Shown here piece by piece: positions 4,141 to 20,685 of a stretch of DNA of 64,000 nucleotides (the stretch's first letter is position 1; each line of letters opens with the position of its first letter). Below the pieces are notes generated by a model. The model did no database searches. It had not been told where the DNA came from and saw only the letters and a list, made by a program, of their open reading frames with translations. The stretch comes from Streptomyces bikiniensis (GTDB taxonomy: Bacteria; Actinomycetota; Actinomycetes; Streptomycetales; Streptomycetaceae), in contig JNWL01000034.1 in assembly GCA_000716465.1 (NCBI GenBank), forward strand, positions 1 to 64,000, given 5' to 3'. The position numbers were made by a program, and so were the translations under genes.

Positions 4141-4175
4141 CACCGCGCCCCGGGGCGCGCCCCCGGGGCGGTGGT
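4141..4175 (+). terminator. Terminator after the cold-shock gene
   Basis: An imperfect GC-rich hairpin (CCACCGC...GCGGTGG ends, one bulge) begins 4 bases after the stop codon. Confidence 0.55.
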
Positions 4176-4189
4176 ACTGTGCCGAGGCC

Positions 4190-4364
4190 AGTCGCACCTT
4201 TGTACGCACCCGAACGGGTGGGTGCACGGGTCAGGGAATCCGGTGCGAGACCGGAACTGACGCGCAGCGGTGAGGGCGACGGGCGGAGCATCGGCCACTG
4301 GGCGGCGACGACGGCCCGGGAAGGCGCCCCGTCCGGCTGACCCCGAGTCCGAAGACCTGCTGGC
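4190..4364 (+). ncRNA. Cobalamin riboswitch (importer operon)
   Basis: The leader carries the conserved pieces in order: CAGGGAATCCGGTGCGAGAC, CCGGAACTGACGCGCAGCGG, a GCCACTG segment, CCGGGAAGG, and finally GAGTCCGAAGACCTGC. These match the cobalamin aptamer core and B12 box. The lipoprotein gene starts about 80 bases downstream, leaving room for a platform that hides its ribosome site (AGAGGAAG, 4432-4439). Known logic: adenosylcobalamin binding lowers expression of the importer. Confidence 0.93.
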
Positions 4365-4443
4365 GGCCCCGGCGGCACACGCGCGCCCGGGGAGCACCGT
4401 ACGACAGGCTCCGCGCATGAGCCCTGGCCGCAGAGGAAGTCCC

Positions 4444-5508
4444 GTGCCGCTCGCACACCCCGTCCGCTCCGCCGTGCCGTTCCTCACCGGAGCCCTGCTC
4501 CTGACCGCGACGGGCTGCGGCGCGGGGACCACCCCCGCCCCCGACCGGCCCGCGGGCGGCGCCGCCGGGGAGGCGAAGACCGGGTACCCCGTCGTCCTCG
4601 ACGACAACTGCGGACGGCCCGTCCGCGTCGAGCGCGCGCCCGAGCGGGCCGTCGCCCTCGACCAGGGCGCGGCGGAGATCATGCTCTCCCTCGGCCTCGC
4701 CGACCGCATGGTGGGCACCGGCACCTGGACGGATCCCGTCCTCAAGGGCCTGGAGAAGGAGAACGCCAAGGTCCCGCGCCTCGCCGACCGCTACCCCTCC
4801 TTCGAGAAGGTCCTCGACACCGAACCCGACTTCGCCGCCGCCTCCTTCACGTACACCCTCGGCAAGGGCGGCGTGGCGACCCGCGAGCGGTTCGAGGAGC
4901 TCGGCGTCCCCACGTACCTCTCGCCCACCGACTGCGTCGGCAAGGACAACGGCGGCGACGGCGACGGCGTCCGCGTCCGGCCGCTCACCATGGAGACGGT
5001 CCACGGCGAGATCCGCGACCTGGCCCGGATCTTCGGAGTCCCGGAGCGCGGCGAGAAGCTCGTCGCGGAGCTCAAGGCCCGGGTGACGAAGGCGACTTCG
5101 GGTGGAAGCTTCGAGAACGCCACGGTCCTCTACTGGTTCGCCAACTCCGAGGCGCCCTACATGGCGGGCTGCTGCGGCGCCCCCGGCATCGTCTCCCGCG
5201 AACTGGGTGCCAAGAACGTCTTCGACGACACCAAGGAGGAGTGGCCCCAGATCAACTGGGAGACCGTCGCCGACCGCGACCCCGACGTCCTCGTCATCGG
5301 TGACCTCACCCGCCGCTCGCAGTCGGCCGAGAGCGCCGCCAAGAAGATCGAGTTCCTGGAGTCCGACCCGGTCACCCGCAACATGACCGCGGTGAAGAAC
5401 AAGCGGTACGTGCTGCTCAGCGGCCAGGCGCTCAACCCCACGGTCCGCACCGTCGAGGCCGTCGAGAAGGTGGCGGCGGCCCTCCGCTCGTACGGTCTCG
5501 CCAAGTGA
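4444..5508 (+). CDS. btuF: Cobalamin-type ABC transporter substrate-binding lipoprotein
   Basis: 354 aa from GTG 4444, which has a good AGAGGAAG site; ATG 4417 upstream has none and would push the signal peptide inward. A signal peptide ends in LLTATGC, a lipobox-like Cys that would anchor the protein outside the membrane. The body has the periplasmic-binding (FecB/BtuF) layout: VERAPERAVALDQGAAEIML, GLADRMVG, then a C-lobe with NWETVADRDPDVLVIGDLT. The riboswitch makes B12 or a corrinoid the likely ligand; a siderophore is less likely. It overlaps the permease by four bases (GTGA). Confidence 0.85.
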   Translation: MPLAHPVRSAVPFLTGALLLTATGCGAGTTPAPDRPAGGAAGEAKTGYPVVLDDNCGRPVRVERAPERAVALDQGAAEIMLSLGLADRMVGTGTWTDPVLKGLEKENAKVPRLADRYPSFEKVLDTEPDFAAASFTYTLGKGGVATRERFEELGVPTYLSPTDCVGKDNGGDGDGVRVRPLTMETVHGEIRDLARIFGVPERGEKLVAELKARVTKATSGGSFENATVLYWFANSEAPYMAGCCGAPGIVSRELGAKNVFDDTKEEWPQINWETVADRDPDVLVIGDLTRRSQSAESAAKKIEFLESDPVTRNMTAVKNKRYVLLSGQALNPTVRTVEAVEKVAAALRSYGLAK

Positions 5509-6587
5509 CGCCCACTGCCCCTCCGCCCACTGCCCCTCCGCCCACCGCCCCTCCGGCCGGGGCTTCGGTGCGGAAGGGAGCCGCGGTCCTGCTGGGGACG
5601 GCGGCCGGGCTCGCGCTCCTGGCCGCGTCGATCGCCGTGGCCATCACCATCGGCCCGGCCCGCATCGGCGTCGCCGACGTGTGGGCGACGGTCGCCGCCC
5701 ACCTCGGCGGGGGCGTCCCGGAACTCTCCCCGATCCGGGACGGGATCGTGTGGGACCTGCGGCTTCCCCGCACCCTGCTCGCCGCCGTCTGCGGCGCCGG
5801 CCTCGCCCTCTGCGGCGCGGTGATGCAGTCGCTGCTGCGCAACCCGCTCGCCGACCCCTTCGTCCTGGGCGTCTCCTCCGGCGCCTCGACCGGCGCGGTC
5901 GCGGTCGTCGTCCTCGGTGTCGGCGGGGGAGTGCTCTCCGTCACCGGCGGGGCGTTCCTCGGGGCGGTCTGCTCCTTCGCGCTGGTGCTGCTGCTCAGCC
6001 ACACCCTCGGCGGCTCCACGGACCGCGTGGTCCTCTCCGGGGTCGCCGCCATGCAGCTCTTCTCCGCCCTCACCTCCTTCGTGGTGATGACGGCCGCCGA
6101 CGCGGAGACCACCCGGGGCGTCCTCTTCTGGCTGCTCGGCTCGCTCGCCGGGGCCGGCTGGACCGACGTGTGGGTCTGCCTCGGCGTCCTCGCGGCGGCC
6201 CTGACGACCTGCCTCGGGTACGCGCGGACCCTGGACGCGTTCGCCTTCGGCGAGGAGGCCGCCGCCTCCCTCGGCGTCGCCGTCGCCCGGACCCGGATCG
6301 TCCTCCTCTGCGCCACCGCGCTCCTGACGGCCGCCCTGGTCTCCGCCGCCGGGGCCATCGGCTTCGTCGGGCTCGTCCTGCCGCACGCCGCCCGCGCGCT
6401 CGTCGGCCCCGGGCACACCCGGCTGCTCCCGGTCACCGCCCTGGCCGGAGCCGTCTTCCTCGTCTGGGCCGACACCCTCGCCCGTACCGTCCTCGACCCC
6501 CAGGAGGTCCCGGTGGGCGTGGTCACCTCGCTGATCGGCGTACCGGCCTTCGTCCTGGTCCTCTACCGCACGAGGAGCACGCGATGA
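5505..6587 (+). CDS. btuC: FecCD/BtuC-type ABC transporter permease
   Basis: 360 aa from GTG 5505, which overlaps the lipoprotein stop. About ten hydrophobic segments and the family landmarks are visible: WDLRLPRTLLAAVCGAGLAL, LRNPLADPFVLGVSSGAS, and GAIGFVGLVLPHAARALVGP, the cytoplasmic loop that contacts the ATPase. The first 20 residues are a PTAPP tandem repeat and probably not part of the fold. Partner of the lipoprotein before it and the ATPase after it (overlap ATGA at 6584). Confidence 0.88.
   Translation: MTPTAPPPTAPPPTAPPAGASVRKGAAVLLGTAAGLALLAASIAVAITIGPARIGVADVWATVAAHLGGGVPELSPIRDGIVWDLRLPRTLLAAVCGAGLALCGAVMQSLLRNPLADPFVLGVSSGASTGAVAVVVLGVGGGVLSVTGGAFLGAVCSFALVLLLSHTLGGSTDRVVLSGVAAMQLFSALTSFVVMTAADAETTRGVLFWLLGSLAGAGWTDVWVCLGVLAAALTTCLGYARTLDAFAFGEEAAASLGVAVARTRIVLLCATALLTAALVSAAGAIGFVGLVLPHAARALVGPGHTRLLPVTALAGAVFLVWADTLARTVLDPQEVPVGVVTSLIGVPAFVLVLYRTRSTR
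5509..5553 (+). repeat. Three tandem 15-nt units at the start of btuC
   Basis: CGCCCACTGCCCCTC occurs at 5509 and 5524 and, with one change, at 5539. It encodes PTAPP repeats at the permease N-terminus. Unit length is a multiple of three, so copy-number change keeps frame. Confidence 0.85.
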
Positions 6588-7465
6588 CCCCCACCCGCGA
6601 GGACACGGGCCTGCGCGCCGACCGGGTCTCGCGCACCGCCGGCGGCACCCTCGTCCTGGACGGCGTCGGCATCGCCCCGGTCCCCGGCACCGTCACCGGC
6701 CTCCTCGGCCCCAACGGCTCCGGCAAGTCCACGCTCCTGCGCCTGCTCGCCGGCGTCCTCGCCCCCGACTCCGGGACCGTCACCCTCGACGGCGAGCCCC
6801 TTGCCGGGCTGGGCCGCAGGACCGTCGCCCGGCGCCTCGCCACGGTCGAGCAGCAGTCCGACACGCAGACCGACCTGACCGTCCTCGACGTCGTACGGCT
6901 CGGCCGCGTCCCGCACCGCAGGGCCTGGACCCCGCCCTCGGTGGCGGACGAGGCCGCCGTCCGCTCCGCCCTCGCCCGCACCGGCCTCGCCGACCGGGCC
7001 CGCCAGCCCTGGCGGACCCTCTCCGGCGGCGAGCGCCAGCGCGTCCAGATCGCCCGCGCCCTCGCCCAGGAGCCGCGCGAGCTCCTCCTGGACGAGCCCA
7101 CCAACCACCTCGACGTCCAGCACCAGCTGGACCTCATGGAACTCGTCTCGGGCCTGCGCCTCACGGCCGTCGTCGCCCTGCACGACCTGAACCTCGCGGC
7201 GATGTACTGCGAGCGGTTGGTGGTCCTCTCCGGCGGACGCGTCGTGGCCGCCGGCACGCCGGACGAGGTGCTCACCGAGGAGCTGATCGCGGACGTCTAC
7301 CGGGTCCGGGCCGCCGTGACGCACCCGGACCCCGGCGGCCGCCCCCACGTCCGCTTCCTGGGGACGGCCGGGCCGCCCTACTCCCCTTCGCCGGGCTCCG
7401 GCGCCAGCGCGTCCATGAAGGAGCTGACCGAGAACACCGCGCGCCCGGGACCGGCCGGACCGTAG
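6584..7465 (+). CDS. btuD: ABC transporter ATPase of the cobalamin importer
   Basis: 293 aa. Walker A GPNGSGKST (about 42-50), Q-loop VEQQSDTQTDLT, signature LSGGERQRVQIARAL, Walker B ELLLDEPTNHLD and a switch His in ALHDLNLAAMYC are all present. It energises the importer made by the two preceding genes. The last 29 codons overlap the 3' end of the convergent radical-SAM gene, an 88-base antisense overlap, and no terminator separates them. The C-terminus past HVRFLG looks unconserved. Confidence 0.9.
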   Translation: MTPTREDTGLRADRVSRTAGGTLVLDGVGIAPVPGTVTGLLGPNGSGKSTLLRLLAGVLAPDSGTVTLDGEPLAGLGRRTVARRLATVEQQSDTQTDLTVLDVVRLGRVPHRRAWTPPSVADEAAVRSALARTGLADRARQPWRTLSGGERQRVQIARALAQEPRELLLDEPTNHLDVQHQLDLMELVSGLRLTAVVALHDLNLAAMYCERLVVLSGGRVVAAGTPDEVLTEELIADVYRVRAAVTHPDPGGRPHVRFLGTAGPPYSPSPGSGASASMKELTENTARPGPAGP

Positions 7466-9740: not shown

Positions 9741-12581
9741 TCAGGCGCGGGGGACGAGGTCCAGTTCGGCCAGCGCGGCCGCGGCGTCGGCGGCGTGGTC
9801 GGGGGAGGGGCTCTTGGCCAGCGCCCGGTTCAGGTGGCGGCGGGCGGCCTCCCGGTCGCCGCGCATCCGGGCGGCCAGTCCCAGACCGATCTCCGCGCGC
9901 ACCTCGCCCCGGCCGTAGGCCCGTTCGCCCGACACGGACAGCGCGCGTTCGTACAGCTCCGTCGCCTGCCGGGCACGGCCGGCCGCCAGGGCGGTCCTGC
10001 CGAGCCAGGTCAGGGTCTCGACGACCTCGGTCCACAGCCCGAGCTCCTCGGCGACCAACAGCCCCGCCCGGTGCAGCCGCTCGGCCCGGACCCGGTCCCC
10101 TTCGCGCTCGGCCGCCAGCGCCAGCGCCCGGGTGGCCCGCAACTGCCCCCAGCGGTCGCCCACCTCCTGGAACAGCGCGGCGCCCAGCTCCGCCCGGTCG
10201 TGGTCCCCGGCCGGGTCGTTGCCCGCCAGTTCCACCAGCGCCGCCGCCTCGCCCCAGCGGTCCCGGGCTGCCCGCGCGCCGGCCAGGCTCGCCCTCACCA
10301 ACCGCAGCCCCTCGGACCGGAGGCCCTGCCCGAGCAGGCCGGTGCCGACGAACCACTGCAACCGGGCGCGCAGCACCGGGTCGCCGATCCCTGACGCCGG
10401 GTCCTCGTCCGCCGCGACGGCCGGCTCCGCGTCCACCGAGGAGGTGCGCAGCTCGATGCCGGTCAGCCAGGCCCGCGCCGCCGGCCGAGCCCCCGCGTCG
10501 GCCCCGTCGTCGACGGCCAGTGCCGTCTGGAGCGACCTGCGGGCCTCGGTGAGCCGTCCCCGAAGGAACCAGTACCAGCTCAGCGCGTTCACCAGCCGCA
10601 CCGCGCACCCCGGGGCACCGCCGGCCGCGGCGAACTCCAGGGCGCGTCGCAGGTTCACGGTCTCCGCGTCCAGCCGCTCCAGGCAGCGGCGCTGCTCCGG
10701 GCCTCGCAGCAGCTCGCTCTCCCGCTCCGCCGCCTCGGTGTGCCGGCGCACGAAGCGAGCCCGGACGGCGGCCTCCTCCCCGGCCTCCGCCAGGCGCTCG
10801 CCGCAGTACGCGGCCACCGACTCCAGCAGGCGGAACCGATCTCCCTCCCGCACCACCAGCGAGCGGTCCACCAGCCGGGACAACAGGTCCGGCACCCGCT
10901 CCGGGCCGAGGTCCGCACCGGCGCAGACCGCCTCGGCGAACCGAAGGGTGCAGCCGTCCGCGTGCACGGCCAGCCGCCGCAGCACGGTCCGCTCGTCCGG
11001 GGAGAGCAGCTGCCAGCTCCAGTCGAGCATGCTGCGCAGCGTCTGCTGGCGCGCAGGGAGGCCCCGCACCCGGGCCGCCGGCGGGGTGAGCCGGTCCTCC
11101 AGGCAGGCGGCGAGCTCGTCAGGGCTCAGGGTCCGCAGCCGAGGCGCCATCAGTTCCAGCGCGAGCGGAATGCCGTCCAGGCGACGGCAGATGGCGGCCA
11201 CCGCCGCCGCGTTGCCCGCGTCGAGGGCGAAGCCGGGCGCCGCCGCGGCCGCCCGCTCCACGAACAGCTCGACGGCGCCGGACCGGGCCACCGCCTCCGC
11301 GTCGGCACGCTCCGGCAGTGCCAGCGGCGGCACCGGGTGCACCAGCTCGCCGGGGACGTCGAGGGCCTGCTGGCTGGTGACGAGCAGGTGCCCGGCGGGG
11401 ACCGCCGACAGCAGGGCCCCGGCGAGCACGGCCACCGGCTCGACCAGGTGCTCGCAGTTGTCCAGCAGGACCAGCAGCTCCTTGCCGGCAACCGCCCGGC
11501 ACAGCCAGCCCACCAGGTCGTCCAGGTCCGGCTCGGTCGCCGCGGTGTCGCACAGGCCCAGGGTCGTGATGACCCGCTCGGCGACGTCGTCGTGGTCCGC
11601 CGCGGCGCTCAGACCGGCCAGTTCCACCAGCCACACGCCGTCGGCGAACCGCTCGGACAGGTCGCGCGCCGCGGCGATCGCCAGCCGCGTCTTGCCCACG
11701 CCGCCCAGACCGGTGAGCGTGACCAGACGGGTCCTGGTGCCCGGGCTCAGCAGGGCGCGCACCCGCTCGACCGCCGAACGCCGGCCGATCAGCGGCGTCA
11801 GCGGCGTGGGGAGGTTGGTGCGACGGGACGGCGCCGCTGCGACCGGCGCGGCCAGCTCCGGTTCCTGACGCAGCATCGCCTCGTGCAGGGCGGAGACCTC
11901 CGGCCCGGGCGACACCCCCAGCTCCTCGACCAGCCGACGCCGCAGCTCCTGGAAACCGTGGAGCGCCTCGCCCTGCCGCCCGGCCCGGTACAGCGCGCGC
12001 ATGTGAGCCATCCGCAGCCGTTCGCGCAGCGGGTGCCGGGCCACCAGTTCGCCCAGCTCCGCCGCCAGCGCAGGGTGCTCGCCCAGCACCAGCCGCACCT
12101 CGGCCTGGTCCTCGACGACGCTCAGGCGCAGCTCCTCCAGCCGGGCGACCTCGGCGCGGACGAACAGCGACTCGGCGACGTCGGCGTAGGCCGGGCCCCG
12201 CCACAGCGCGAGCGCCTCGGCGAACAGGCCCGCCCGTGCCGAGGGCTCGCGGCGCCCGCGGGCCCGCTCGACCAGCTCCTGGAAGCGGGCCGCGTCCAGC
12301 GCGCCGTCGGGCATCACGAGCCGGTAGCCGGCGGGCTCCCGGACCACCCGCTCCCTGCCCAGCACCCGGCGGAGCTGGGAGACCTTGGTCTGCAGGGTGT
12401 TGGCCGAGCCGCCGGGCGGATTGCCCGCCCACAGGTCGTCGATCAGGCGGTCGGCCGGCACCGGCCCCCCGCCGTGCACCAACAGGTCCGCCAGCAGGGC
12501 GCGCACCTTGGCCTCGGGAACCTTGACCGGCCGCCCCTCGGCGTCCCAGACGGCCAGCGGGCCGAGCACCCCGTAACGCAT
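9741..12581 (-). CDS. AfsR-like regulator: OmpR-type DNA-binding/BTAD + NB-ARC ATPase + TPR
   Basis: 946 aa from ATG 12579-12581. Residues 1-95 form the winged-helix domain (MRYGVLGPLAVWDAEGRPVK; NTLQTKVSQLRRVLG). Residues 97-245 form the bacterial transcriptional activation domain. Then comes an NB-ARC type ATPase with Walker A GLGGVGKTR (291-299), a Walker B-like LLVLLDNCEH, and a TPR-rich C-terminal half. This is the AfsR architecture, which activates specialised metabolism or transporter genes. It is divergent from the MFS pump with about 95 bases between, so the pump is the likely target. No biosynthetic genes adjoin it. Confidence 0.85.
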   Translation of the reverse strand: MRYGVLGPLAVWDAEGRPVKVPEAKVRALLADLLVHGGGPVPADRLIDDLWAGNPPGGSANTLQTKVSQLRRVLGRERVVREPAGYRLVMPDGALDAARFQELVERARGRREPSARAGLFAEALALWRGPAYADVAESLFVRAEVARLEELRLSVVEDQAEVRLVLGEHPALAAELGELVARHPLRERLRMAHMRALYRAGRQGEALHGFQELRRRLVEELGVSPGPEVSALHEAMLRQEPELAAPVAAAPSRRTNLPTPLTPLIGRRSAVERVRALLSPGTRTRLVTLTGLGGVGKTRLAIAAARDLSERFADGVWLVELAGLSAAADHDDVAERVITTLGLCDTAATEPDLDDLVGWLCRAVAGKELLVLLDNCEHLVEPVAVLAGALLSAVPAGHLLVTSQQALDVPGELVHPVPPLALPERADAEAVARSGAVELFVERAAAAAPGFALDAGNAAAVAAICRRLDGIPLALELMAPRLRTLSPDELAACLEDRLTPPAARVRGLPARQQTLRSMLDWSWQLLSPDERTVLRRLAVHADGCTLRFAEAVCAGADLGPERVPDLLSRLVDRSLVVREGDRFRLLESVAAYCGERLAEAGEEAAVRARFVRRHTEAAERESELLRGPEQRRCLERLDAETVNLRRALEFAAAGGAPGCAVRLVNALSWYWFLRGRLTEARRSLQTALAVDDGADAGARPAARAWLTGIELRTSSVDAEPAVAADEDPASGIGDPVLRARLQWFVGTGLLGQGLRSEGLRLVRASLAGARAARDRWGEAAALVELAGNDPAGDHDRAELGAALFQEVGDRWGQLRATRALALAAEREGDRVRAERLHRAGLLVAEELGLWTEVVETLTWLGRTALAAGRARQATELYERALSVSGERAYGRGEVRAEIGLGLAARMRGDREAARRHLNRALAKSPSPDHAADAAAALAELDLVPRA

Positions 12582-12677: not shown

Positions 12678-14243
12678 ATGAGCACAACAACCGCAGGCGG
12701 GGCCGGGGCCCGGGAATGGGGAGGACTGGCGGTCCTGTCGTTGCCCACCGTGCTGCTGGGCCTGGACGTCACCGTGCTGTACCTCGCCCTTCCCTCCCTG
12801 GCGGAGGACCTGCGCCCGAGCGGCACCGAAGAGCTGTGGATCATGGACGCCTACGGCTTCCTGATCGCCGGCTTCCTGATCACCATGGGCACCCTGGGCG
12901 ACCGCATCGGCCGGCGCAGGCTGCTGCTGCTGGGGGCGGCCGCCTTCGGAGTCGTCTCCGTGCTGGCCGCCTACTCCACCAGCGCCGAGATGCTCATCGC
13001 CGCCCGCGCGGCCCTCGGGATCGCCGGCGCCACCCTCATGCCGTCCACCCTGGCGCTGATCAGCAACATGTTCTCCGACGAGCGCCAGCGCTCGCTGGCC
13101 ATCGGCGTCTGGGCCACGAGCTTCGCGCTCGGCATGGCACTCGGCCCGGTGGTCGGCGGCGCGATGCTCGACCACTTCTGGTGGGGTTCGGCGTTCCTCC
13201 TCGCGGTCCCGGTCGCCGTCGTGCTGCTGGTGGCCGCGCCCCTGCTGATCCCCGAGTACCGGGCGCCGCACAGCGGCCGCTTCGACCTGCTCAGCGTCGT
13301 GCTGTCGTTGGTCGCGATCCTGCCGGTGATCTACGCGGTGAAGCAGTTCGCCAAGGACGGCCTGGACCTCGCCACTGTCGCCGCCACGGTGGTCGGCGTG
13401 GTGTTCGCGGTGGTGTTCGTCAAGCGCCAGGGCAAGCTGGCGAGCCCGCTGCTGGACATGCGCCTGTTCACCGACCGGACCTTCAGCGCCGCGCTGAGCG
13501 TCCTGCTGGTCGGCCTGGTGGGCGTCGGCGGCTCCATGCTGCTGATCACCCAGCAGCTCCAGCTCGTCGAGGGGCTGCCGCCTGTCGAGGCGGGGCTGTG
13601 GATGGGCCCGCCCGCGATGCTGATGTTCCTCGCGGCGATCGGAGCTCCGCTGGTGTCGCGCCGGGTGCCGCCGGGGATCGTGGTGGCCGCCACGCTGACG
13701 CTGTCCACGGTGGGGTACGTGCTGCTCACCCAGGTCGACGCCGGGGACGGCGTGGCCCTGATGGTGATCGGCTTCGGCCTCGTCTACCTCGGACTGGGGG
13801 CGATCGCCGCCCTGGGCACGGACCTGGTGGTCGGGGCCGCGCCGCCGGAGAAGGCCGGCTCGGCCTCGGCCATGTCGGAGACCGTCCAGGAGCTGGGCCT
13901 CGCCCTGGGCGTGGCGATCCTGGGCAGCCTGGCCACCGCCGTCTACCGCAACCGCATCGACGGCGAGATCCCCGCCGGTACGCCCTCGGACGTCGCCGAG
14001 CCCGCCGGCGACAGCCTGGCCGGCGCGGCGTCGTCGGCCCAGCGGATGCCCGAGGGGTGGTTCGAGGCGGCCAAGGAGGCGGCCACCTCCGGTCTGAACA
14101 CCGCCATGCTGGTCGCCGCGGTGTGCACGCTGGTGCTGGCGCTGCTCTCCGCCGTCGTCCTGCGGCACGTCGGGGTCATCGGCGGCCAGGAGCCGGACGC
14201 CGGGGAGAGCGTCCCGGCGGAACGTGCCGGGTCACAGGTGTGA
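12678..14243 (+). CDS. DHA2-family MFS drug exporter (EmrB/QacA type, 14 TM)
   Basis: 521 aa from ATG 12678, preferred over ATG 12666 because GGGGAG (12668-12673) sits five bases before it. Landmarks: TVLLGLDVTVLYLALPSLAE at TM1 and the loop motif GTLGDRIGRRRLLLLGAAAF. The TM5 region FALGMALGPVVGGAMLDHFW carries the antiporter motif C. About 14 hydrophobic helices fit proton-driven drug efflux. The divergent AfsR-like gene is the likely regulator. The convergent gene 68 bases on is the damaged LysR fragment, perhaps the pump's former regulator. Confidence 0.88.
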   Translation: MSTTTAGGAGAREWGGLAVLSLPTVLLGLDVTVLYLALPSLAEDLRPSGTEELWIMDAYGFLIAGFLITMGTLGDRIGRRRLLLLGAAAFGVVSVLAAYSTSAEMLIAARAALGIAGATLMPSTLALISNMFSDERQRSLAIGVWATSFALGMALGPVVGGAMLDHFWWGSAFLLAVPVAVVLLVAAPLLIPEYRAPHSGRFDLLSVVLSLVAILPVIYAVKQFAKDGLDLATVAATVVGVVFAVVFVKRQGKLASPLLDMRLFTDRTFSAALSVLLVGLVGVGGSMLLITQQLQLVEGLPPVEAGLWMGPPAMLMFLAAIGAPLVSRRVPPGIVVAATLTLSTVGYVLLTQVDAGDGVALMVIGFGLVYLGLGAIAALGTDLVVGAAPPEKAGSASAMSETVQELGLALGVAILGSLATAVYRNRIDGEIPAGTPSDVAEPAGDSLAGAASSAQRMPEGWFEAAKEAATSGLNTAMLVAAVCTLVLALLSAVVLRHVGVIGGQEPDAGESVPAERAGSQV

Positions 14244-14311: not shown

Positions 14312-14985
14312 TCACCCGGCGTCCTCCGCCACCACGTCCCGGGCCAGCCGGACGAAGGAGCGCAGCGCCGGATGCTGGTTGTTGGACGCCCAGACCAGGT
14401 ACACCGGCACCGGGGGCGCGTCCCGGAGGGGGAGGTACGTGATCTCGGAGTGCGGGTGCATCCACGCGGTGGAGGCCGGCGTCACCCCGAGGCCGACGCC
14501 TGCGGCGATGTACGTCTGCCAGTCGTCGAGGGTGTCGACCTCCACCGCGACGACGGGCCGCCTGCCGTCCTGCCAGAGGCGGAGACTGGTGGTGCCGGAG
14601 AAGGAGTTGATCACCAGGGCGTGGTCGGCCAGGTCCGCCAGCCGGACCTCGCCCACTGCGGTGAGCGGGTTGTCCGTCGCCACCGCCACCACTCGGGGCT
14701 CCATGACGAGCAGCTCCTCGTGCAGGTTCCGGCCCCGGGCGTGGGTGCGCATGATCGCCACGTCCGACAGCCCGCTGGTGAGCCCGCCGGCGGGGTCGTC
14801 CACCCGCCGCAGACGCACCTCGACGTCCGGGTGGACCTCCTGCCATCGGCGCAGGATCTCGCTGGTGTACACACCGACCGCCGACCAGGCGTGTCCGACG
14901 CGCAGGGCGCGCACCCTCTGCAGGTCCGAGCGCATGGCGTCGTCGAAGGCGGTGACGGCCGCGTCGGCCTTGGCGCAGAAGGTCT
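14312..14985 (-). pseudogene. LysR regulator fragment: ligand-binding domain without DNA-binding domain
   Basis: About 220 residues at the C-terminal end of a long fused frame are a LysR substrate-binding domain: RALRVGHAWSA, ILRRWQEVHPDVEVRLRRVD, LSDVAIMR, VVAVATDNPL, GLGVTPAS. The fragment begins with TFCAKADAAVTAFDDAMRSD, which in LysR proteins follows the winged helix (LTPAG-T-F). The winged helix itself is absent. Instead the frame runs straight into metE coding sequence at about 14980-14990 with no stop between. It could not act as a regulator. It probably derives from a regulator of the adjacent MFS gene or of a lost neighbour. Confidence 0.85.
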
Positions 14986-16075
14986 TGCCGGCCCGCAGGT
15001 CGGCGCGGGCGGTGCGCAGCTCGCCGGTCTGCGGGAAGGACCCGATGGTGGTGGTCGGGAGCAGCGGCAGGCCCAGGTGGGCGCGCTGGGCGGAGGCCCG
15101 CTCGGGGTACGGCTGCGAGCGGCGGGAGTCGGCCTCCGTCACGGCGGCGGTCCGGGCGCGCACCCGCGGGTTCCGGGTGAGGGGGGAGGTCGCGCGGGAG
15201 GCGACGGCGGCGAACCCGTCCAGGTTGGCCGCGGCCGGGCCGGTGAAGTCGAGCGCCAGGCCCTCGACCGGCGCCTTGGCCAGGACGGGCAGGGCGTCCC
15301 CGAGGCGGTCGAAGTACGAGGCGACGAGGAGCTTGGGCCGGTCGGTGAGCGCGCCGAGGTCGCGATAGGCACGGGCGGCGGCGTTCAGGTCGGCCGGGGT
15401 GCGGTCCTGGACGAGCGCGGGCTCGTCCAGCTGCACCCACGCGGCGCCGGCCGCCCGCAGGTCCGCGAGGACCTCCGCGTACACCGGCAGGAGCCGGTCG
15501 AGCAGGGGCAGCGGGTCGAAGTCGGCGGCCACGCCCGGCGCGGGCTTGGCGAGCAGCAGGTAGGTGACGGGTCCGACGAGGACCGGACGGGCCGCCGGCC
15601 CCAGAGCCAGGGCCAGGGCCTCCTTGAGCTCCGCGACCTGCTTGGAGGAGTCGGCCGAGAAGACCGTGTCCGGGCCCAGCTCCGGCACCAGGTAGTGGTA
15701 GTTGGTGTCGAACCACTTCGTCATCTCCAGCGGGGCGACGTCCTGCGTGCCGCGCGCCATCGCGAAGTAGCCGTCCAGGGCGTCCGCGGCGACCGCCTCC
15801 CGGTGCCGCGCGGGAATCGCGCCCACCATGACGCTGGTGTCCAGGACGTGGTCGTACTACGAGAAGTCGCCGGTCGGCACCTCGTGGACGCCGGCTCCGG
15901 CGAGCCGCCGCCAGTTCGCGCGGCGCAGTTCGGCGGCGGTGGACCGGAGGGAGTCGGCGGTGACGCGGCCCTTCCAGTAGCCCTCGATCGCCTTTTTCAG
16001 CTCCCGGTCACGGCCCTGGCGGGGGTAGCCGTACACGGTGGCCCGTGCTGCCGCGGCTGCGGACTTCGTGGTCAC
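14980..16075 (-). pseudogene. metE: Broken metE: cobalamin-independent methionine synthase remnant
   Basis: From GTG 16073-16075 (AAGGAG site) the frame reads as MetE: ATVYGYPRQGRDRELKKAIE, GYWKGRV, then VPTGDFS and an amber TAG at 15857-15859 where MetE has Tyr (GDFSYYDHVLD; TAC to TAG). Past the stop the same frame continues as MetE: MVGAIPARHREAVAADALDG, EMTKWFDTNYHYLVPELGPD, LVASYFDRLG. At about 15205 LDGFAAV jumps to SRATSPLTRNP, an in-frame loss of roughly 100 residues. After LPTTTIGSFPQTGELR and RADLRAG it fuses to the LysR fragment. The whole zinc-binding catalytic C-terminal half is gone. Non-functional as methionine synthase. Confidence 0.92.
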
Positions 16076-16254
16076 GGAGATCTCCTTCGCGAGATGAATC
16101 CCTGAGATCCCGGAGACGGGACGGGGGTGCGAAGGGGCGACGGACCGGACGGTCGCGAGCACGCGCGGCGGGGCGCGGTCGTCCGCCTGGTATGTGCGCC
16201 GACCCGCCCTCGAGGTCACCGGGATGTCCGCGCGCGGAATCGTCCGCGTGCGGG

Positions 16255-16430
16255 CAGCGGGCAGGTCTTCGGACTCGCGGGCGCGTCGTGTCGTGCACGA
16301 CTCCTACTGGCCGTCGCTTCCCAGACCCTTCCCGGGTCCAGTGCGTATGGCGGCGGTCGTTCCCGCTCACCGCTGCGGGGCAGCCCCGGATTCCCACCGG
16401 ATTCCCACCGGGTTCCCTCTTACGACGCGT
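16255..16430 (-). ncRNA. Cobalamin riboswitch upstream of the broken metE
   Basis: Read on the minus strand: AGAGGGAACCCGGTG, GGAATCCGGGGCTG, CCCCGCAGCGGTGAGCGGG, a GCACTGG segment, CCCGGGAAGG, and CGCGAGTCCGAAGACCTGCC. This is a complete-looking cobalamin aptamer about 180 bases before the metE start. In Streptomyces it lets cobalamin shut off the B12-independent enzyme. The aptamer appears intact though its gene is not; one motif (GGTGGGAATCC) is partly duplicated. Confidence 0.92.
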
Positions 16431-16560
16431 CCCGCCTGGCGGACGGGGCGAACCAGCTGCCCGGCCAGACTGTGGGGTCGATCGCCGGACGGGAGGAGTG
16501 CGTCTCGCCATGCGGACGCGGAGGTGAGACGGGCGGTTGCCGCCCGCGGAGCATCGCGAC

Positions 16561-16726: not shown

Positions 16727-17670
16727 TCAGGCCGGCCGCCCGGACGTCTCCGCCCGGTCGTACACGTGGAACCCCCGGCCGGTCTTCCGGCCGAGCAGCC
16801 CCGCCTCCACCATCCGCAGGAGCAGCGGGGGAGGGGCGTACAGGGGCTCCTTGAACTCCTCGTACAGCGAGTCCGCGATGGACGCGACCGTGTCGAGTCC
16901 GATCAGGTCCGCGAGCCGCAGCGGCCCCATCGGGTGGGCGCAGCCCAGTTCCATGCCCCGGTCGACGTCCGTGGCGGAGGCGAACCCCGACTCCGTCATC
17001 CGGATCGCGGACAGCAGGTACGGGACGAGCAGGGCGTTGACGACGAAGCCGGCCCGGTCGCGGGAGCTGATGGCGGTCTTGCCCAGGGTCTCCGTCGCGA
17101 AGGACGTCACCGCGGCCGTCGTCGCCGCCGAGGTGTGGAGGGTCGTGACGATCTCCACGAGCGGCAGCACGGGCACCGGGTTGAAGAAGTGCAGCCCCAC
17201 GACCCGGTCGGCGCGCTCGGTGGCCATGCCGAGCCGCATGACCGGGAGCGAGGAGGTGTTGGTGGCGAGGACCGCCGCCGGGTCGGTGACGATCTTGTCG
17301 AGCGCGGCGAACACCCGGGACTTGACGGCGGGATCCTCGACCACCGCCTCGACCACGAGCTGCCGGTCCGCGAGGTCGGACATTTCGGCGGTGGCCGTGA
17401 TCCGGTCGAGCGCCGCCTCGGCGGAGGGGCGGTCCAGCTTGCCGCGCCGGACGGCCCGTTCGAGGGAGACGGCGACCCGCTCGCGGGCGGCCCGCGCCGC
17501 CGCGCGGTCGGCCTCGCAGATCACGGTGGGGAGCCCGGCCCGCGCGCAGACCTCCGCGATGCCCGCGCCCATCTGCCCGCCGCCCACGACGCCGACGCGC
17601 CGGATGCCGCCGCCCGGACCGGGACTCGTACCGGCCTCCGTGCCGCCGCCCGGACCGGCGCCCGCGCCGC

Positions 17671-17674
<4 letters not shown>
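16727..17674 (-). CDS. 3-hydroxybutyryl/3-hydroxyacyl-CoA dehydrogenase
   Basis: 315 aa from GTG 17672-17674, which overlaps the malate synthase stop. After a Gly/Pro-rich lead of about 25 residues comes RRVGVVGGGQMGAGIAEVCA, the NAD-binding fold. The catalytic His lies in VVGLHFFNPVPVLPLVEIV, and the C-terminal helical domain has NALLVPYLLSAI and GCAHPMGPLRLADLIGLD. The family oxidises 3-hydroxyacyl-CoA to 3-ketoacyl-CoA. Fourth base overlap with malate synthase implies co-translation, linking short-chain acyl-CoA use to the glyoxylate shunt. Confidence 0.88.

Positions 17675-19278
<1,604 letters not shown>

Positions 19279-19401: not shown

Positions 19402-20685
<1,284 letters not shown>

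Follow-up and report, generated by a model that had tools for sequence, protein, structure and literature searches.

MetE requires its C-terminal domain for catalysis, and fusion pseudogenes can arise by rearrangement at short shared sequences. Repression of metE by B12 via a cobalamin riboswitch is described as a tested case for Priestia megaterium (PMC9600662), and is likewise stated for other bacteria (PMC4428469). Here we analyze a metE locus on contig C34 (JNWL01000034.1) of the Streptomyces bikiniensis draft genome, an assembly of 7.39 Mb in 163 contigs that is 99.77% complete; "the window" denotes the whole stretch of 64,000 nucleotides that was studied.

The locus is reminiscent of a riboswitch-controlled metE, with an N-terminal domain close to that of S. 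cinereoruber MetE and a riboswitch upstream, but it carries a stop codon, a 104-residue deletion, no catalytic domain and a riboswitch core with 11 additional nucleotides. Its other half is similar to the LysR of an AfsR-MFS-LysR cassette in effector-binding domain, neighbours and orientation, but lacks the helix-turn-helix, the 5' end being replaced by metE. As in fusion pseudogenes, two truncated unrelated genes are joined and the reciprocal product was not found; here, the frame happens to be kept. The locus is most likely a fusion pseudogene of recent origin, found so far only in this genome, where both methionine synthases are retained. We give a probability of roughly 0.9 to the reading that a redundant metE under B12 control was inactivated by a nonsense mutation, a deletion and a rearrangement involving an accessory cassette. 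It would be a clear-cut and seemingly recent case of such a loss in Streptomyces, with a countable set of lesions and with changes to the sensor RNA as well as to the gene.

A truncated metE joined to a truncated lysR

On the minus strand, genes for isocitrate lyase, malate synthase and a 3-hydroxyacyl-CoA dehydrogenase-like protein are followed by a cobalamin riboswitch and the metE remnant. The features of the region, with positions in the window, are:

19402..20685, minus strand, isocitrate lyase (aceA; PF00463)
17671..19278, minus strand, malate synthase (aceB; PF01274)
16727..17662, minus strand, 3-hydroxyacyl-CoA dehydrogenase-like gene upstream of metE (named by eye; start approximate)
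16243..16472, minus strand, cobalamin riboswitch preceding the metE remnant (RF00174; 76.9 bits, gathering score 31.5)
14987..16075, minus strand, metE remnant (GTG start at 16075; alignment to the second metE, on contig C2, ends at 14987)
15857..15859, minus strand, TAG stop at codon 73 (tyrosine in the intact copies compared)
15203..15211, minus strand, in-frame deletion point (104 residues, 312 bp, gone: end of the N-domain plus linker)
14981..14993, minus strand, metE/lysR joint (break at 14987/14986; both parents encode Ala-Gly)
14312..14986, minus strand, LysR effector-binding domain, N-terminal helix-turn-helix missing (LysR_substrate, E 2.3e-29)
12678..14243, plus strand, MFS-type transporter, cassette member convergent with lysR (named by eye; 84–86% to L021–L024)
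9741..12581, minus strand, AfsR-like regulator, cassette member divergent from the MFS gene (named by eye, start approximate; 76–78% to L021–L024)

The same gene order is presumably found around metE in S. coelicolor (SCO0982 to SCO0985). A homologue of the dehydrogenase (77%) lies immediately upstream of intact metE in the relatives L031 and L033, as seen in the approximately 1.2 kb of upstream sequence compared for each relative's metE locus.

Aligned with the intact 772-aa MetE of S. cinereoruber (P0001), the remnant shows 96% identity over residues 1–289 with one TAG; the similarity resumes at residue 391 and extends, at 78%, to approximately residue 471 (E 2.2e-176, beyond chance). A two-residue insertion (ALALALG for ALALG) was also seen by eye. 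In Pfam searches, Meth_synt_1 was recognized on either side of the TAG (profile positions 3–62 and 74–276 of 313), indicating an interrupted domain without the last part of its profile, while for the catalytic Meth_synt_2 the best stretch covered only positions 1–28 of 324. With so little left of a domain that is needed for catalysis, MetE activity would not be expected from the remnant. The frame downstream of the TAG (14312..15829, minus strand) encodes 505 aa, and the metE segment upstream of it extends to the GTG. No Shine-Dalgarno-like stretch was seen by eye before its ATG at 15829.

The preliminary description of this DNA had read a decayed metE fused in frame to part of a lysR gene: a MetE N-domain in one frame with a single TAG, an in-frame deletion of about 100 residues, the start of the MetE C-domain, a LysR domain without winged helix, and a frame of 505 aa starting at 15829. 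The Pfam domains and alignments agree with it on all of these points. PF03466 (LysR_substrate) is nearly complete (7–207 of 209), and no helix-turn-helix family was found in the Pfam search.

The riboswitch and its alteration were both absent from that description. Measured from GGGAA to TGCCC, the core has 40 nt in the window, which corresponds to an 11-bp tandem duplication; the same core measures 29 nt in 26 metE leaders, namely those of 25 of the 27 relatives' loci and of the C2 copy, the two remaining loci (L048, L051) having failed to match the core motif. Among the genome's other riboswitches, one (L011) has a 29-nt core and two (L010, L013) gave no motif match. In the Rfam alignment, the hairpin after GGGAA carries the 11 extra bases in its loop. 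Loss of riboswitch function through the duplication is plausible. The core folded in isolation without the usual hairpin, but this is weak evidence, as neither sequence folded better than its shuffles.

The LysR half shares 79–80% identity with its counterparts from four named Streptomyces records (L021–L024), which are all that was confirmed by a scan with exact peptide patterns from which the own genome was left out (E 5e-120, relative to the candidate stretches only). All four LysR frames have, by eye, the N-terminal part that is missing in the window. AfsR-like, MFS and LysR genes occur in identical order and orientation in the four records, and thus the lysR half came with the 9.7–14.3 kb block. 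The link to this block that had been suggested earlier holds in that the lysR belongs to it and the joint is where it meets the metE locus; the single deletion proposed alongside is considered below. When the DNA of the LysR half and the 3' part of the MFS gene was searched for in 149 other Streptomyces genomes (threshold E<=1e-60, with scores for two candidates per genome), a full-length match was obtained in one, and the MFS part alone in eight more, which makes the cassette accessory. Judging from its contig coordinates, the single genome is probably the S. californicus record already compared.

DNA identity to the genome's other metE stops at position 14987, and identity to the four intact LysR genes starts at the same point; the junction had been located earlier at about 14980–14990. 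Ala-Gly is encoded at the joint in 8/8 metE and 4/4 lysR sequences compared (L029 gave none), with GGCCGGC before the joint in one of the four lysR orthologues and GCCGGC in two of the eight metE sequences. Judged from these relatives of the parent genes, a shared microhomology of up to 6–7 bases is therefore possible, and could have helped the rearrangement. Both the deletion and the joint keep the frame, for which the chance is about 1 in 9.

The joint was found in 1/295 Streptomyces genomes, the source genome itself, and in 0/294 others, in a search (40 bases, at most 3 mismatches) that would miss more diverged copies. No fused MetE-LysR protein was present among the 120 listed of 7995 matches.

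A second metE and metH in the same genome

An intact metE is present at C2:49142-51445 (85% to P0001), preceded by its own riboswitch (C2:51618-51844) and adjoining a ScfR-type regulator (PF09856). Of the set compared, L028 is closest to it (95.7%), and the ScfR neighbour of L028 is 95% identical over the part compared. The two metE copies are approximately 84% alike in DNA, and the remnant is closer to S. cinereoruber-type MetE (93%) than to the C2 copy (86%); the two riboswitch-preceded genes are of different lineages. The B12-dependent synthase (metH-type) domain PF02965 occurs once in the genome, on C13. Among 36 relatives of the same genus, 22 have one metE, none has two and 14 have none (E<=1e-40), and thus metE is often absent.

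The preliminary description had raised possible methionine or B12 dependence, had noted that an intact metE elsewhere would weaken this, and had left metH to be looked for. As both intact metE and metH are kept, such a dependence is not expected, and beyond this correction the locus has little consequence. Redundancy may be what allowed the loss.

As a separate observation, in locus L008 (C2:46000-55000) the intact metE is flanked by the ScfR regulator on one side and by a malate synthase-like gene (49.5% to the aceB of the window) on the other, so that both copies neighbour glyoxylate-cycle-type genes.

The existence of two metE copies in a 163-contig draft, together with a joint seen in no other genome searched, could also reflect misassembly or a base error that created the joint or the stop. 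We consider this improbable: the copies differ too much in DNA to be easily collapsed, the remnant is more similar to another species' MetE than to the C2 copy, four separate lesions would have to be accounted for, and a false join would leave the missing halves on other contigs, where they were not found. Searches of the own genome gave only the C2 gene for the lost C-terminal half of MetE, and a best match of only 51% identity for the lost N-terminal half of LysR. A reciprocal rearrangement was rejected within this assembly, since neither half is found elsewhere in it.

Age of the lesions and fate of the product

The remnant departs at 1 of 176 columns conserved at >=98%, the columns being drawn mostly from proteins picked for likeness to it; in the comparison of 146 intact proteins, 142 depart 0–3 times and four depart 5–11 times. 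Its dN/dS values against seven intact genes (0.13–0.20) lie within those between intact genes (0.10–0.22). Old decay of the metE part was rejected, there being no excess substitution. With little other decay in the remnant, the lesions look recent relative to the divergence of the compared genes; less likely, its product is still under selection. The kept frame and low substitution count, which could be held against a pseudogene, fit either recent death or retained use.

For the LysR half, dN/dS is 0.25–0.31 against the four orthologues, slightly less being seen between L021 and the other three intact, distant orthologues (0.22–0.25). The intact MFS neighbour shows the reverse trend (0.20–0.26, versus 0.28–0.29 between orthologues). 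The difference hints weakly that selection on the LysR half has relaxed.

The dN/dS of the LysR half, still well below 1, together with an effector-binding domain that is nearly complete and in frame, and with a riboswitch and start region still upstream, could suggest a working hybrid, made from 15829 or from an in-frame start nearer the joint, whose LysR domain would dimerise with a LysR paralogue and modify it. We regard it as very improbable, as its ATG follows no Shine-Dalgarno-like stretch (by eye), the attached MetE N-domain is without its last part, the joint is confined to one genome among 295, and the dN/dS of the LysR half is slightly raised. Even harder to credit is a variant in which silencing by the riboswitch with duplicated core has been lost and the effector-binding domain of the hybrid serves a LysR paralogue as a decoy partner; were it true, a piece of a regulator would have been captured by a former B12-responsive leader. 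Under the preferred reading of a fusion pseudogene, no useful protein would be made.

How the joint may have arisen

We propose that, with the intact C2 copy and metH present, the metE copy near aceA, aceB and hadh was no longer needed. This copy would then have gained the nonsense codon, the internal 312-bp deletion and the 11-bp riboswitch duplication, and both its catalytic domain and the DNA-binding end of the cassette lysR would have been lost in a rearrangement; this order of events is the one we infer.

Two routes to the joint can be considered: lysR may have been adjacent to metE beforehand, one deletion making the joint, or the accessory block may have moved in and then been broken at the joint. 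S. californicus is the sole relative in which metE and lysR were seen on one contig, where they are approximately 428 kb apart (C1:3522-5849 and about 433.5–434.1 kb); the minus strand carries both, and lysR is the upstream gene. With lysR upstream of metE, a simple deletion does not fit there. In S. inusitatus, the two genes lie on separate contigs of 250,040 and 226,038 bases, and no metE was found at E<=1e-30 in the other two named cassette genomes. None of the relatives compared had the cassette adjoining metE.

Neighbouring features of the window

A second cobalamin riboswitch (4172-4378, plus strand) is followed by genes for a periplasmic binding protein and a FecCD permease, and by a frame that by eye resembles an ATPase. 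The region (4172-7465) probably encodes a B12 importer; about 7 kb separate it from the metE remnant. At 240-2001, opposite strands encode an AfsA (A-factor biosynthesis) protein and a TetR-family regulator, possibly a gamma-butyrolactone signalling pair.
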